In this document: positions 42,431 to 46,479 of the stretch, one piece after another
Layout of the letters: each line of letters begins with the position of its first letter
Numbering within the stretch: position 1 is the first letter of the stretch
NCBI RefSeq assembly: GCF_013752535.1
Contig: NZ_CP058348.1
Location: 806,001 to 870,000, forward strand
Reading direction: 5' to 3'
Source: Bdellovibrio sp. KM01
GTDB taxonomy: Bacteria; Bdellovibrionota; Bdellovibrionia; Bdellovibrionales; Bdellovibrionaceae
DNA: 64,000 bases
The notes under the pieces: model-generated
Seen by the model: only the letters and a program-made list of their open reading frames with translations
Told to the model about the DNA's origin: nothing
Databases searched by the model: none
Made by a program: the position numbers and the translations under genes

Positions 42431-43276
42431 ATGGCTAGCATTTGGAAAGGCTCCATTAGCTTTGGATTATTAAATATTCCAGTGACTTTGCAAGGGGCTC
42501 AATCGGAGAAAGAAATTTCTTTCTCCATGCTCGACAAAAAAGATCTGTCGCGAATTCAATATAAAAAGATCAACGCAAAAACCGGGAAAGAAGTCCCCTA
42601 CGAAAATATCGTAAAGGGTTATGAATATACGTCGGGTCGTTACGTCTTGGTGACGGAAGATGAAATCAGAAAATCGAATGTTAAGGCTTCGCAGACGATC
42701 GACATCGAAGACATTGTATCTTTGGAAGAAATTGATCCGATGTATTTCGAGCGTCCTTACTATCTGGTTCCGCAAAAAGGTGCCGAGAAGGGATATTACC
42801 TGCTTCGTGATGCCTTGGCCAAATCTGGTCGCGTGGCCGTTTCTAAGATAGTAATTCGGATCAAACAGCATTTGGCGATGATTATGCCTAAGGGCGAATA
42901 TCTGATGCTGGAGCTTTTGCGTTTTGGGCATGAAGTTAAAACTGAAAAACAAGTTCACTATATGAAAGATGTCACCAAAACCGCGAACTACAATCCTCGG
43001 GAATTGAAAATGGCCGAAGATCTGATCGAAGGAATGACCAGTAAATGGAAACCCGAACAGTACAAGGACACCTACTATCAAGAGGTCATGAAAGTCATCG
43101 ATCGAAAAATCAAAGGTGGTAAGGGTCACAAAGTCGCGCCCATTAAAGAAGAGGACGTGGAAACAACAGACAATGTCGTCGATCTTATGCCGCTTTTGCA
43201 AAAAAGTTTGGCGGCCCGCAAGACCGCCAAAAAGAAAGCTCCCTCGAAATCCAGAGCTCGCAGTAAGCCTGCTTAG
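42431..43276 (+). CDS. ku: Ku DNA end-binding protein
   Basis: A 281-residue bacterial Ku. It binds double-strand ends and recruits LigD for non-homologous end joining. Recognisable blocks are MASIWKGSISFGLLNIPVTL, a bridge region with QYKKINAKTGKEVPYE and DIVSLEEIDPMYFERPYYLVP. A basic tail of Lys/Arg/Ala follows (from about residue 255). GGAGG at 42421-42425 fixes the ATG; the upstream frame has no support. It converges on ligD-rnhB. Confidence 0.95.
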   Translation: MASIWKGSISFGLLNIPVTLQGAQSEKEISFSMLDKKDLSRIQYKKINAKTGKEVPYENIVKGYEYTSGRYVLVTEDEIRKSNVKASQTIDIEDIVSLEEIDPMYFERPYYLVPQKGAEKGYYLLRDALAKSGRVAVSKIVIRIKQHLAMIMPKGEYLMLELLRFGHEVKTEKQVHYMKDVTKTANYNPRELKMAEDLIEGMTSKWKPEQYKDTYYQEVMKVIDRKIKGGKGHKVAPIKEEDVETTDNVVDLMPLLQKSLAARKTAKKKAPSKSRARSKPA

Positions 43277-43291
43277 TCACTGTTAGTGTTC

Positions 43292-43888
43292 TTATAAAAT
43301 AAAGGGAAGACTGACTTGTGAAAATGATTTGCGATGTAGACGACAGGGGCCGTGTTCTCGCAGGGCTTTGATGTGTGCAGCGGTCGCGTAGCCTGCGTTG
43401 TGTTCCCACCCATAGTGGGGAAATTCTTTTCCCAGCTCGGCCATCAGTTCGTCGCGTGCGACCTTGGCAATGATCGAGGCTGCAGAGACGGGGGCGAATA
43501 AAAGGTCTCCTTTCACCACGGGAGTTTGTTGAAATTCCTTGGGCAATACAGGAATGCGTAAACGCCCATCCACGAGCACGTGCCCCTTTTTAAGTCGAAG
43601 GCCCGTGATGGCTCTTTTCATTGCTAGCATCGAAGCGTAGACGATATTGAGCATTGCTATTTCCTCGACGGTGGCGATCCCAATCGCGACTTGGTGTTCA
43701 TGACAGATTTCTCGAAACACATCTATGCGTTGTTTGCGCGACAGAAGTTTTGAATCTTTTAGAAATTTCGGTAAACGCTCATGTTTCAGAACCACGGCCG
43801 CCGCAAAGACAGGACCGGCAAGGCTGCCACGTCCCACTTCATCCACACCGATTACGGGTTTTGGGCGGTACTGTGTCCATGCTTTCAT
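43292..43888 (-). CDS. rnhB: Ribonuclease HII
   Basis: A 198-residue RNase HII that cuts DNA 5' to embedded ribonucleotides. Motifs are GVDEVGRGSLAGPVFAAAVV (first Asp-Glu pair), VLVDGRLRIP and SIIAKVARDELM, together the DEDD active site. The ATG overlaps the ligD stop by 4 nt (ATGA), so it is translationally coupled to ligD. It ends 15 nt from the ku stop on the other strand. RNase HII is the natural partner to a polymerase that inserts ribonucleotides. Confidence 0.95.
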   Translation of the reverse strand: MKAWTQYRPKPVIGVDEVGRGSLAGPVFAAAVVLKHERLPKFLKDSKLLSRKQRIDVFREICHEHQVAIGIATVEEIAMLNIVYASMLAMKRAITGLRLKKGHVLVDGRLRIPVLPKEFQQTPVVKGDLLFAPVSAASIIAKVARDELMAELGKEFPHYGWEHNAGYATAAHIKALREHGPCRLHRKSFSQVSLPFIL

Positions 43889-46290
43889 AAATGCGCTTGA
43901 GTCCGAGTGGAGCTTTTTTTGGTGGTCGCTTTATCCAAGAGTTCAATTCGTTGCTGCAACTTTAAGTAACCTTGCCAAGGATCACTGCGCCGACGTTGAA
44001 GGTGGGCCAGGGCCTTTTTCAAATCATAGTAATCTCCGCCGGGAATCTTTTTTAGATCGCTCCAGGTGACAGGCATGGCGACGGCACTGATCGCACGAGC
44101 GCGAAGTGAATAAGGTGCAACCGCCGTGGCTCCTTGAGAGTTTCTAAGGTAGTCGACAAAAATGCGACCTTCGCGAATCTTTTTAGACATCTTTGAAACG
44201 AAAAGATCCGGATCTTGTTGTTCCATCTGTAAAGCCAAGGCGTGGGTAAAGCTGTTGATTTGATCAAACGTATAAATCGGGACGATAGGGACGTGGACGT
44301 GAACTCCTTTTCCGCCGCTCAGTTTGACGAAGCTTTTTAGGCCCAGTCCTTCCAAGAGCTTTTTAAGAGTGAAAGCCGAGTCCACGACGGTTTTCCAGTC
44401 GACACGTGGCCCGGGATCGAAATCTATAACGAATTGATCGGGCACGGCGGTTTCAGGGTGGCGGGAATTTGAACAATGAATTTCAAAAGCATTCATTTGT
44501 ACCAATGCCGCAAGCCCTGCATCGTCGTGAACACTCATGTAGGTGCCATAACCTCCGTGCTCTTTCATTTTCACCGGGGTCATGGATTCTGGGATCTTGG
44601 CTTGGTGTTTTTGAAAGAAGCACTGTTTGCCGGTGCCATTCGGGCAACGCACCAATGACAACGGACGGTCCGTGATGAGAGGCAAAATGTGTTCTGCTAC
44701 TTTGGCATAAAAATTTGCAACCTGACGTTTAGTGATTTTTTCTTTCGCGAACAGAATTTTGTCGGGACTGGAGATGGGCCATTCTTCACTGGATTTAAGT
44801 GCCATTGGCGTCTCCTTATTAATTTGTTTCGTAGGTTTGTCTTCACGCAGTCCATTAAAAACAGGGACGCGCAGGATTTCTTCATGGGTCCAATTGGAAA
44901 AAGTGATCTCGGCACTGTATTTGGGTTTTAACCAGTGGTAGTCGCGACCCTTAGGGGATTTGATATCAAAAGGAGATTGTTTGGTTTCCAGGGGCTTCAA
45001 AGTATTAAAGACGTCTCGCAAGGATTGTTGTGTAAATCCCGTGCCGACTTTACCCACGTATTGCAGTTTATCTTTCTTGTAAACTCCCAGAAGGAGCGCA
45101 CCAAAGTGATCGCGGCTGCCTTTTCCTAAAGTGTAGCCGCCGATAACGAACTCCTGTTGTTCGCTGCATTTTATTTTAAGCCAATTGGAATTTCGTTCGG
45201 ATCGATAAGTGCTGTTTCTTTTTTTGGAGATAATTCCTTCTAAGCCGTGCTTTTTGGCCTGAGCCAAAAGACTTTTCCCGGTGCCTTGGTATTCTTCGCT
45301 GTAGCGAATGCGGCCGGCAGATTTTTTAAATATTTTTATCAGTTCATCGCGACGTTGTTCCAAAGGTCGGGTGCGCAGATCCTTTCCATTGATAGCTAAC
45401 AGATCAAAGGCATAAAGATACATATTCTGGGCCCGGTTGCTTTTTAGGGCATTCTGTAAGAGTTGGAAATCGCTGCGACCGGAACTGTCAAGGATCACAA
45501 TTTCCCCGTCAATGACGGCACCTTCGACATCCAGCTTTTGCAGATCTCTTTCAATCACCGGAAATTTCGCCGTCCAGTCTTGTCCCGAGCGAGTGAAGAG
45601 TTTGACTTCGTCACCGTTTACGTGCGCTTGGATGCGATAGCCGTCGAATTTTAATTCGTGCAACCACTCTTTACCTTCAGGAGGCTCGTCGACTAGAAGA
45701 GCTAGTTCCGGAGTTACGAAGGGAAGCTTTGCGACCTTTCCCGATTTTCGGAAGGCTTTTTTTTTAACCGTTTTTTTGGCAGCTACGGGTTTGATATCCG
45801 GAACGGCTTCTGCAAAAGCGTCATCCTTTTTCATTAAGAGCCATTGGCTGCTGCGACCTGGAGTGCGGGTTCGCACTAAGTGAAAAACGCCTTTCAGTTT
45901 TTTTCCTTTCAGGGAAAATACGAGATGGCCTTTCTTAAACCCCTTGGCGGCGTCTTCTTCTGGCACCCAAGTACCTTTGTCCCAAATATAAACTTCACCA
46001 CCACCGTATTGATCTTCTGGAATAGTTCCCTGAAATGAACCATAGGAGAGAGGATGGTCTTCGGTTTCAACAGCCAGCCGTTTTGTGTGAGGGTCCATGC
46101 TGGGACCCTTAGGAACAGCCCAACTTTTTAGGACGCCCTCCCATTCCAAGCGAAAGTCCCAATGAAGATGGCTAGCGTGATGTTCCTGAACAACGAACGA
46201 TAGAGCTCCCTTGCCGGACTTCTTGATCTTGCCAGGAGGCTCCTTGGTGATCTTAAAATCGCGCTTTCGATTGTATTTCGCTAAACTCAT
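43885..46290 (-). CDS. ligD: Multifunctional ATP-dependent DNA ligase LigD
   Basis: An 801-residue end-joining ligase with three domains in order: phosphoesterase (1-160; HHASHLHWDFRLEWEG), ATP-dependent ligase (190-510; catalytic Lys214 in ELKFDGYRIQ; motif SWLKIKC-type NWLKIKCSEQQ), and primase-polymerase (515-795; LSGGKGVHVHVPI and DFDPG). The phosphoesterase trims 3' ends, the polymerase fills gaps with a preference for ribonucleotides, and the ligase seals. The ATG at 46290 has AGGAAG upstream; the in-frame GTG at 46296 lies inside that site. rnhB is coupled downstream and a small basic gene lies 15 nt upstream. Confidence 0.95.
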   Translation of the reverse strand: MSLAKYNRKRDFKITKEPPGKIKKSGKGALSFVVQEHHASHLHWDFRLEWEGVLKSWAVPKGPSMDPHTKRLAVETEDHPLSYGSFQGTIPEDQYGGGEVYIWDKGTWVPEEDAAKGFKKGHLVFSLKGKKLKGVFHLVRTRTPGRSSQWLLMKKDDAFAEAVPDIKPVAAKKTVKKKAFRKSGKVAKLPFVTPELALLVDEPPEGKEWLHELKFDGYRIQAHVNGDEVKLFTRSGQDWTAKFPVIERDLQKLDVEGAVIDGEIVILDSSGRSDFQLLQNALKSNRAQNMYLYAFDLLAINGKDLRTRPLEQRRDELIKIFKKSAGRIRYSEEYQGTGKSLLAQAKKHGLEGIISKKRNSTYRSERNSNWLKIKCSEQQEFVIGGYTLGKGSRDHFGALLLGVYKKDKLQYVGKVGTGFTQQSLRDVFNTLKPLETKQSPFDIKSPKGRDYHWLKPKYSAEITFSNWTHEEILRVPVFNGLREDKPTKQINKETPMALKSSEEWPISSPDKILFAKEKITKRQVANFYAKVAEHILPLITDRPLSLVRCPNGTGKQCFFQKHQAKIPESMTPVKMKEHGGYGTYMSVHDDAGLAALVQMNAFEIHCSNSRHPETAVPDQFVIDFDPGPRVDWKTVVDSAFTLKKLLEGLGLKSFVKLSGGKGVHVHVPIVPIYTFDQINSFTHALALQMEQQDPDLFVSKMSKKIREGRIFVDYLRNSQGATAVAPYSLRARAISAVAMPVTWSDLKKIPGGDYYDLKKALAHLQRRRSDPWQGYLKLQQRIELLDKATTKKSSTRTQAHL

Positions 46291-46305
46291 CTTCACTTCC
46301 TGTTT

Positions 46306-46479
46306 TCAATACATGGACGGAGTGCTGCGGCTGCGAGGAGATTCTACTGAATCATCATAGGGAATATCCGCTGACGTTTCTTGATCCCAATGGCGTTGGG
46401 GTCGCTTCACAGTGTCCTTGGAATTTTTCGAAGAGGACTTCTGGGAAGTTTTTGATGGTTTTTTATTTTTATGAGCCAT
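46306..46479 (-). CDS. Small basic protein upstream of ligD
   Basis: A 57-residue protein too short for usual cut-offs. It has a strong AAGGAGG site upstream of the ATG at 46479 and ends in TGA at 46306, 15 nt before ligD. The first 30 residues are basic (Lys, Ser, Arg, such as MAHKNKKPSKTSQKSSSKNS), the next contain acidic DDSVES and a final SRSRSTPSMY-like end. It looks disordered and nucleic-acid-binding. It is cotranscribed with ligD-rnhB by layout. No family is recognised. Confidence 0.7.
   Translation of the reverse strand: MAHKNKKPSKTSQKSSSKNSKDTVKRPQRHWDQETSADIPYDDSVESPRSRSTPSMY

Follow-up and report, generated by a model that had tools for sequence, protein, structure and literature searches.

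The closest described systems are Ku-LigD end joining, the RNase HII of E. coli and the RNase HII-PCNA complex of A. fulgidus, whose RNase HII binds PCNA through its C-terminal tail. Zhu and Shuman 2008 and Bartlett 2013 are said to bear on the ribonucleotide mechanism of LigD. In the accessible part of one paper, LigD polymerase domains are described as preferring NTPs, and RNase HII is suggested to repair 8-oxo-ribonucleotides inserted by these domains (PMC7072297), while the available extract of another raises ribonucleotides, or their removal, as a possible mark of joined sites (PMC4176331). As regards RNase HII itself, an excerpt of a third paper states that an absolutely conserved tyrosine dictates its specificity, and that the E. 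coli enzyme acts with RNA polymerase and shows no clamp interaction (PMC11253446). Whether, by what and when LigD-inserted ribonucleotides are removed is not settled in the literature consulted. RNase HII as a cleaner acting after LigD has already been proposed in print; what is added here is a linked and putatively dedicated paralog in three species, no instance of which was found in the accessible parts of the open-licence PMC literature on LigD or end joining with RNase HII or rnhB, which is no proof of absence.

The locus described here lies in the window (the whole stretch of 64,000 nt of Bdellovibrio sp. KM01 DNA that was analysed), and the window genome (3.96 Mb, one contig) contains a single Ku match. 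Its features are the following, the window rnhB being called rnhB2:

42431 to 43276, forward strand: ku, 281 aa (PF02735, 2.4e-43; TIGR02772, 5.7e-90), convergent to the ligD unit.
43207 to 43231, reverse strand: terminator-like hairpin with an 11-bp stem and a T-run, from a consensus scan, behind rnhB2 and within the 3' end of ku.
43292 to 43888, reverse strand: rnhB2, LigD-linked RNase HII paralog, 198 aa (PF01351, 6.4e-40).
43295 to 43324, reverse strand: C-terminal tail of RnhB2, F-S-Q-V-S-L-P-F-I-L, residues 189-198.
43885 to 43888, reverse strand: ATGA overlap of the ligD stop and the rnhB2 start, the same in two relatives (G208 and G142).
43885 to 46290, reverse strand: ligD, 801 aa, with the domain order phosphoesterase, ligase, polymerase (TIGR02776, 2.3e-195; PF21686, 4.3e-82).
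46306 to 46479, reverse strand: basic ORF of 57 aa directly upstream of ligD, whose start (46479) is the right edge of the finding.

Ku and LigD, with its phosphoesterase, ligase and polymerase domains, all score above curated cut-offs, as befits a Ku-LigD NHEJ system. The original prediction held that ligD and rnhB overlap by 4 nt (ATGA) and that ku converges on them with 15 nt between the stops, and both statements are correct: the overlap lies at 43885-43888, and 15 nt separate the ku stop (43276) from that of rnhB2 (43292). It should be kept in mind that 4-nt overlaps are common among co-directional genes. At the other end of ligD, a GTG at 46296 is also a possible start, and 15 nt separate the stop of the 57-aa ORF from the ligD ATG. 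This small ORF (46306-46479, reverse strand) has relatives at the equivalent place in G208, G142 and a further relative, G118; the four species share a conserved end, SPRS..TPSMY, and searches of Pfam and NCBIfam with it gave no match.

The window genome has two RNase HII genes, rnhB2 and a housekeeping copy (C1:1869219) that lies between rplS and yraN (rplS-rnhB-yraN), neighbours that are present in all 22 housekeeping loci examined in the genus (22 of 24 genomes). The two proteins are 57% identical over 189 residues, and rnhB2 is an additional, diverged paralog, not the housekeeping gene. Two RNase HI matches are also present in this genome. At its N terminus, the housekeeping RnhB (L002 1306-2055) is extended by about 50 residues, rich in Lys and Ala, which have no counterpart in RnhB2.

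RnhB2 looks like an intact enzyme, and RNase activity may be expected of it. It scores above the family cut-offs (PF01351, 137.6 bits with a cut-off of 25.8; NF000595, 221.5 with a cut-off of 167), and it was placed in two alignments, A3, with 54 RNase HII sequences (Bdellovibrionota and E. coli), and A4, with 40 that include viral relatives. Its residues D16, E17, D107, D146 and Y167 occupy invariant columns in both, and D128 is invariant in A4 and nearly so in A3. We take D16, E17, D107 and D128 to be the catalytic acidic residues and Y167 the junction-sensing tyrosine, presumably the same residue as the absolutely conserved tyrosine of the literature. An AlphaFold2 model of RnhB2 has a mean pLDDT of 94.2, with the tail as the block of lowest confidence (pLDDT 71), and its best PDB match is 7uwe_C, the E. 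coli RNase HII, followed by the RNase HII of T. maritima and S. aureus; RnhB2 is thus predicted to be an ordinary RNase HII. The values of dN/dS for rnhB2 (NG86) are 0.065 for G000, the window genome, against G208, and 0.058 for G000 against G142 (dS 2.2, near saturation). Several dS values are saturated. The gene is under strong purifying selection, at a dN/dS of about 0.06.

The set of RnhB sequences was reduced from 79 to 74 by merging identical rows, and a partial copy (L028, of L019) and the second copy at L078 (which does not have the DExxRG pattern) were left out before the tree was built. In this tree, whose bootstrap is not fully settled and which includes one very long row (L071), the linked copies form one clade (support 100/100) on a long stem (0.96), sister, with weak support (84/72), to the housekeeping copies of the genus plus one family member. 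Some housekeeping rows have odd tails and are perhaps frameshifted (L054, L071, L076). A recent duplication of the housekeeping gene is not supported, given the long stem of the linked clade and the fact that the housekeeping copies of the linked-pair species nest within the genus; the gene may stem from an old duplication or may have been acquired from a relative. The order of gain and loss reads differently in two trees: that of LigD places G118 outside G000, G208 and G142 (95/94), whereas that of housekeeping RnhB places G142 outside (100/90). In the genomes sampled, the gene is confined to one lineage of three species, apparently with one origin.

How widely the pair occurs was followed in a phylum sample of 240 genomes, 54 of them with a LigD phosphoesterase domain and 231 with RNase HII. 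The genes ligD and rnhB are adjacent in three of the 54 LigD genomes (G000, G208 and G142), and a ligD-adjacent rnhB was seen in none of the other 51, some of which are drafts. One of these (G141) has LigD and no RNase HII was found in it; in the other 50 the two genes lie on separate contigs or at least 39 kb apart on one (closest in G083), and in several drafts ligD is cut by or near a contig edge (e.g., G030), so that a neighbour could be missed. Within the genus, rnhB2 is present in 3 of 24 genomes and a LigD match in 22, and each of the three extra RnhB genes follows ligD immediately, overlapping it by ATGA. Across the order (140 genomes, 37 with LigD), there is no further RnhB with more than 60% identity to rnhB2. 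A general conservation of the pairing is therefore not borne out (3 of 24 genus species), but the overlap is kept in all three species that have the pair, and the pairing is not unique to this strain. Of the genomes with LigD, 3 of 54 carry it in the phylum sample and 3 of 22 in the genus. RNase HII is accordingly not a regular member of these Ku-LigD operons, nor a core part of the end-joining machinery here; moreover, the pair is dispensable, since a close relative, G118, has LigD without rnhB2.

Some further arrangements were observed along the way. A draft, G259, has two RnhB genes, both with rplS and yraN, and is likely a mixed bin; the second PF01351 match of G115 reads as RNase HIII-like from its sequence; and tandem rnhB genes occur in G235 (L078 1449-3177) and G218, where ligD shares their contig at a distance of about 87 kb, and in G227, on a contig other than that of ligD. 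In G065 (L006 2924-5343), ligD is present as two ORFs with a 4-nt overlap, the N-terminal phosphoesterase part being apart from the rest.

Searches outside the cellular genomes were narrower. On plasmids, RnhB matches fall in 89 records and LigD matches (tblastn) in 1558, and among neighbourhoods drawn from the 60 RnhB matches listed, ligD lies within 5 kb of rnhB in 0 of 10 annotated ones (11 opened; the gene table is incomplete). On viral contigs, where 80 of 172 RnhB loci were kept, one locus (L145) has a weak LigD-like ligase match (24% over 303 aa), and no Ku was found in the fetched flanks of the kept loci. A contig scan with two poor peptide patterns yielded a single locus, from a Bdellovibrionota MAG; the RNase HII encoded there has a tail of the housekeeping type and falls in the tree among those of the order of the window. 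Two cases of rnhB near a DNA ligase gene were seen, one with the NAD ligase gene ligA on a Sphingosinicella plasmid (L105 4962-7752) and the other with the weak LigD-like ligase match of the viral contig (L145 3944-6692).

Among the 17 genus genomes examined at this locus, 13 have ku and ligD in the same direction, with ku first. The four-species group (G000, G208, G142 and G118) has instead the order ku forward, then, all in reverse, a gene for an SDR oxidoreductase, rnhB2 where present, ligD and the small ORF. In G208 and G142 the unit reads ligD-rnhB2-SDR, with the dehydrogenase gene between rnhB2 and ku; in G118, where the order is ku, SDR, ligD, the SDR gene comes directly after ligD and there is no rnhB2. 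The coordinates of the SDR gene in the relatives are L019 1385-2272, L016 1389-2270 and L014 2050-2928. The window genome contains no SDR ortholog, the best remaining match having 34% identity, and the spacing of 15 nt is seen in this genome alone; the tight convergence of ku and rnhB2 results from the loss of the SDR gene. The notion of that convergence as a functional unit was accordingly rejected, and the facing ku adds nothing to the proposed link. In G142, ku is split, with the C-terminal part by ligD (L016 1174-1392) and the N-terminal part at the end of a record (L027), which is probably an assembly break.

The arguments for coupling of rnhB2 to ligD are drawn from sequence. There is no clear Shine-Dalgarno sequence before the rnhB2 ATG in any of the three species (in G142 this start was picked by alignment, and the frame is open for 30 codons further upstream), while the SDR gene behind rnhB2 has AGGAG in G208 and G142. 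An ATGA overlap without a clear Shine-Dalgarno sequence would fit translational reinitiation from ligD. Terminator-like sites number 12 in the region, with a shuffle mean of 5.9 (sd 2.6), and the reading of the hairpin behind rnhB2 as a terminator is suggestive only. The alternative foreseen in the original prediction, in which rnhB is expressed mainly from a promoter of its own, finds no support in a scan for promoter consensus sites, which gave 4 sites and no excess over shuffles (5.0), and which is weak evidence either way.

The C-terminal tail of RnhB2 differs from that of the housekeeping enzymes. The linked copies end in SFSQVSLPFIL, SFSQVSLPFIF and SFAQVSLPFIF, whereas 21 distinct housekeeping copies of the genus end in F(A/S)GVKE(Y/F/H). 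The available text of one study gives the consensus of beta-clamp partners as Q-aliphatic-x-[L/M]-x-[F/L] (PMC11139829), and that of another gives QLSLPL as a strong clamp-binding variant (PMC4478557). Residues 191-196 of the 198 of RnhB2, QVSLPF, fit the consensus position by position, and a clamp-type motif is present in all three linked tails and in 0 of the 21 distinct housekeeping ones. A loose form of the motif in the last 12 residues occurs in 0.19% of random tails, in 0 of 39 window ORFs and in 3 of 704 locus ORFs, counting in both sets those of at least 200 aa, one of the three being the RnhB2 of G142 and the 198-aa copies being excluded by the length limit; the motif was tested after the tail had been seen. 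The codons of QVSLPFI show silent differences only across the three species, but the linked copies are 81-93% identical overall, which makes conservation of the motif weak evidence. On the side of the clamp, the DnaN of the window genome keeps 9 of 12 pocket residues of subsite I, to which the comparison refers (R152, L155, T172, G174, H175, R176, P242, V360 and M362), and is changed at three (L177, R246 and V247), according to the E. coli list (PMC11139829). The tail of RnhB2 thus possibly binds the beta clamp. Short linear motifs can occur by chance, and looser ones were seen in the tails of three other RnhB of Bdellovibrionota (QLSLM, QLDLL and NLSLF, in L045, L064 and L066); tails of the clamp type may recur among bacterial RNase HII, or be fortuitous. 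The canonical motif stands at the end of 0 of 52 distinct viral RnhB tails; two pattern matches there are QARLKM further inside.

In the reading preferred here, rnhB2 would be translated from the ligD message by termination and reinitiation at the ATGA. LigD would fill broken ends with ribonucleotides and seal them, as reported for members of its family, and so leave ribonucleotides embedded in the DNA. RnhB2 would nick 5' of these ribonucleotides, presumably at the end-joined junctions, and a repair polymerase and a ligase would then replace them. A less certain step is that the tail, QVSLPF, may bind the beta sliding clamp, coupling removal to the clamp and not to RNA polymerase. The functional link between ligD and rnhB put forward originally stands in part: it is not general, but an extra paralog found only after ligD, the ATGA in three of three species and purifying selection give it better support than the overlap alone. 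That RnhB2 is a dedicated RNase HII nicking the ribonucleotides left by LigD is, on balance, somewhat probable from these sequence comparisons, and it is the likeliest of the readings. Recruitment by the clamp is a bolder and tentative addition, as is its extension in time, which we put forward with equal caution: LigD would patch breaks in non-replicating cells, which would be those of the attack phase if this Bdellovibrio is predatory, and a clamp-tethered RnhB2 would remove the patches when replication resumes.

Against a dedicated role, it may be objected that the housekeeping RnhB and the two RNase HI genes could do the job. In line with this, rnhB2 could be a passenger, a copy that came to lie behind ligD and is expressed from the ligD transcript, but that works as a second RNase HII for general purposes and has no particular part in end joining. 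The presence of the gene in just three species, its absence from G118 and the existing housekeeping RnhB, whose invariant residues are the same, agree with such an origin; however, the retention of rnhB2 under the selection described above, beside an intact housekeeping copy, its company with ligD in three of three cases and its changed tail make this explanation rather unlikely. The tail could also be read as a hydrophobic docking segment for LigD or Ku that would hold RnhB2 within the end-joining complex. Within the genus it is specific to the linked copies, and the model has its lowest confidence there, but its residues match the clamp consensus at each position, and docking seems improbable.

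The remaining explanation concerns the moment at which the enzyme acts. RnhB2 might be an alternative end-processing nuclease, trimming ends that contain RNA before ligation, and not a later cleaner. A gene unit common with LigD implies that RnhB2 is probably made when joining occurs, which suits this early action, but the LigD of this locus has a phosphoesterase domain of its own, and such domains of the family resect 3' ribonucleotides; RNase HII, moreover, is described, in the accessible part of the source, as a junction enzyme that requires DNA 3' of the ribonucleotide (PMC11253446); such trimming is very improbable. In the preferred reading, a paralog tied to ligD sets the removal of LigD-inserted ribonucleotides apart from the work of the housekeeping enzyme, and one deletion would test it without disturbing genome-wide ribonucleotide repair.

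When set against Ku-LigD end joining of the P. aeruginosa or mycobacterial type, the locus is alike in having a single Ku and a three-domain LigD, and differs in the extra RNase HII of the ligD unit and in the convergent ku. The polymerase part of LigD aligns, through DxD and VDYLRNS...YS.RAR, with 2fao (probable ATP-dependent DNA ligase), which we take to be the PolDom of P. aeruginosa LigD. Mycobacterial LigC/Prim-PolC offers another likeness, in short RNA patches that are replaced later, but there, in the text available, the proposal assigns the replacement to PolA and not to an RNase H (PMC5663958), which counts against the preferred reading. With E. coli RnhB (7uwe), RnhB2 shares the fold and the invariant residues, including the tyrosine, and the structural alignment gives 48% identity with 7uwe_C, but its gene sits with ligD and its tail carries QVSLPF, a motif that is missing from the tail of the E. 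coli enzyme. Should this tail bind the clamp, RnhB2 would represent a bacterial route of ribonucleotide removal that is reportedly absent from E. coli. The A. fulgidus RNase HII-PCNA complex (3p83) is alike in joining an RNase HII to a sliding clamp, the clamp binding of RnhB2 being putative, and differs in that RnhB2 is a bacterial enzyme, 28% identical, with a motif of the bacterial type. If clamp binding holds, RnhB2 would be a bacterial counterpart of the PCNA-bound RNase H2 of archaea and eukaryotes, evolved anew by the remodelling of the conserved GVKE tail.
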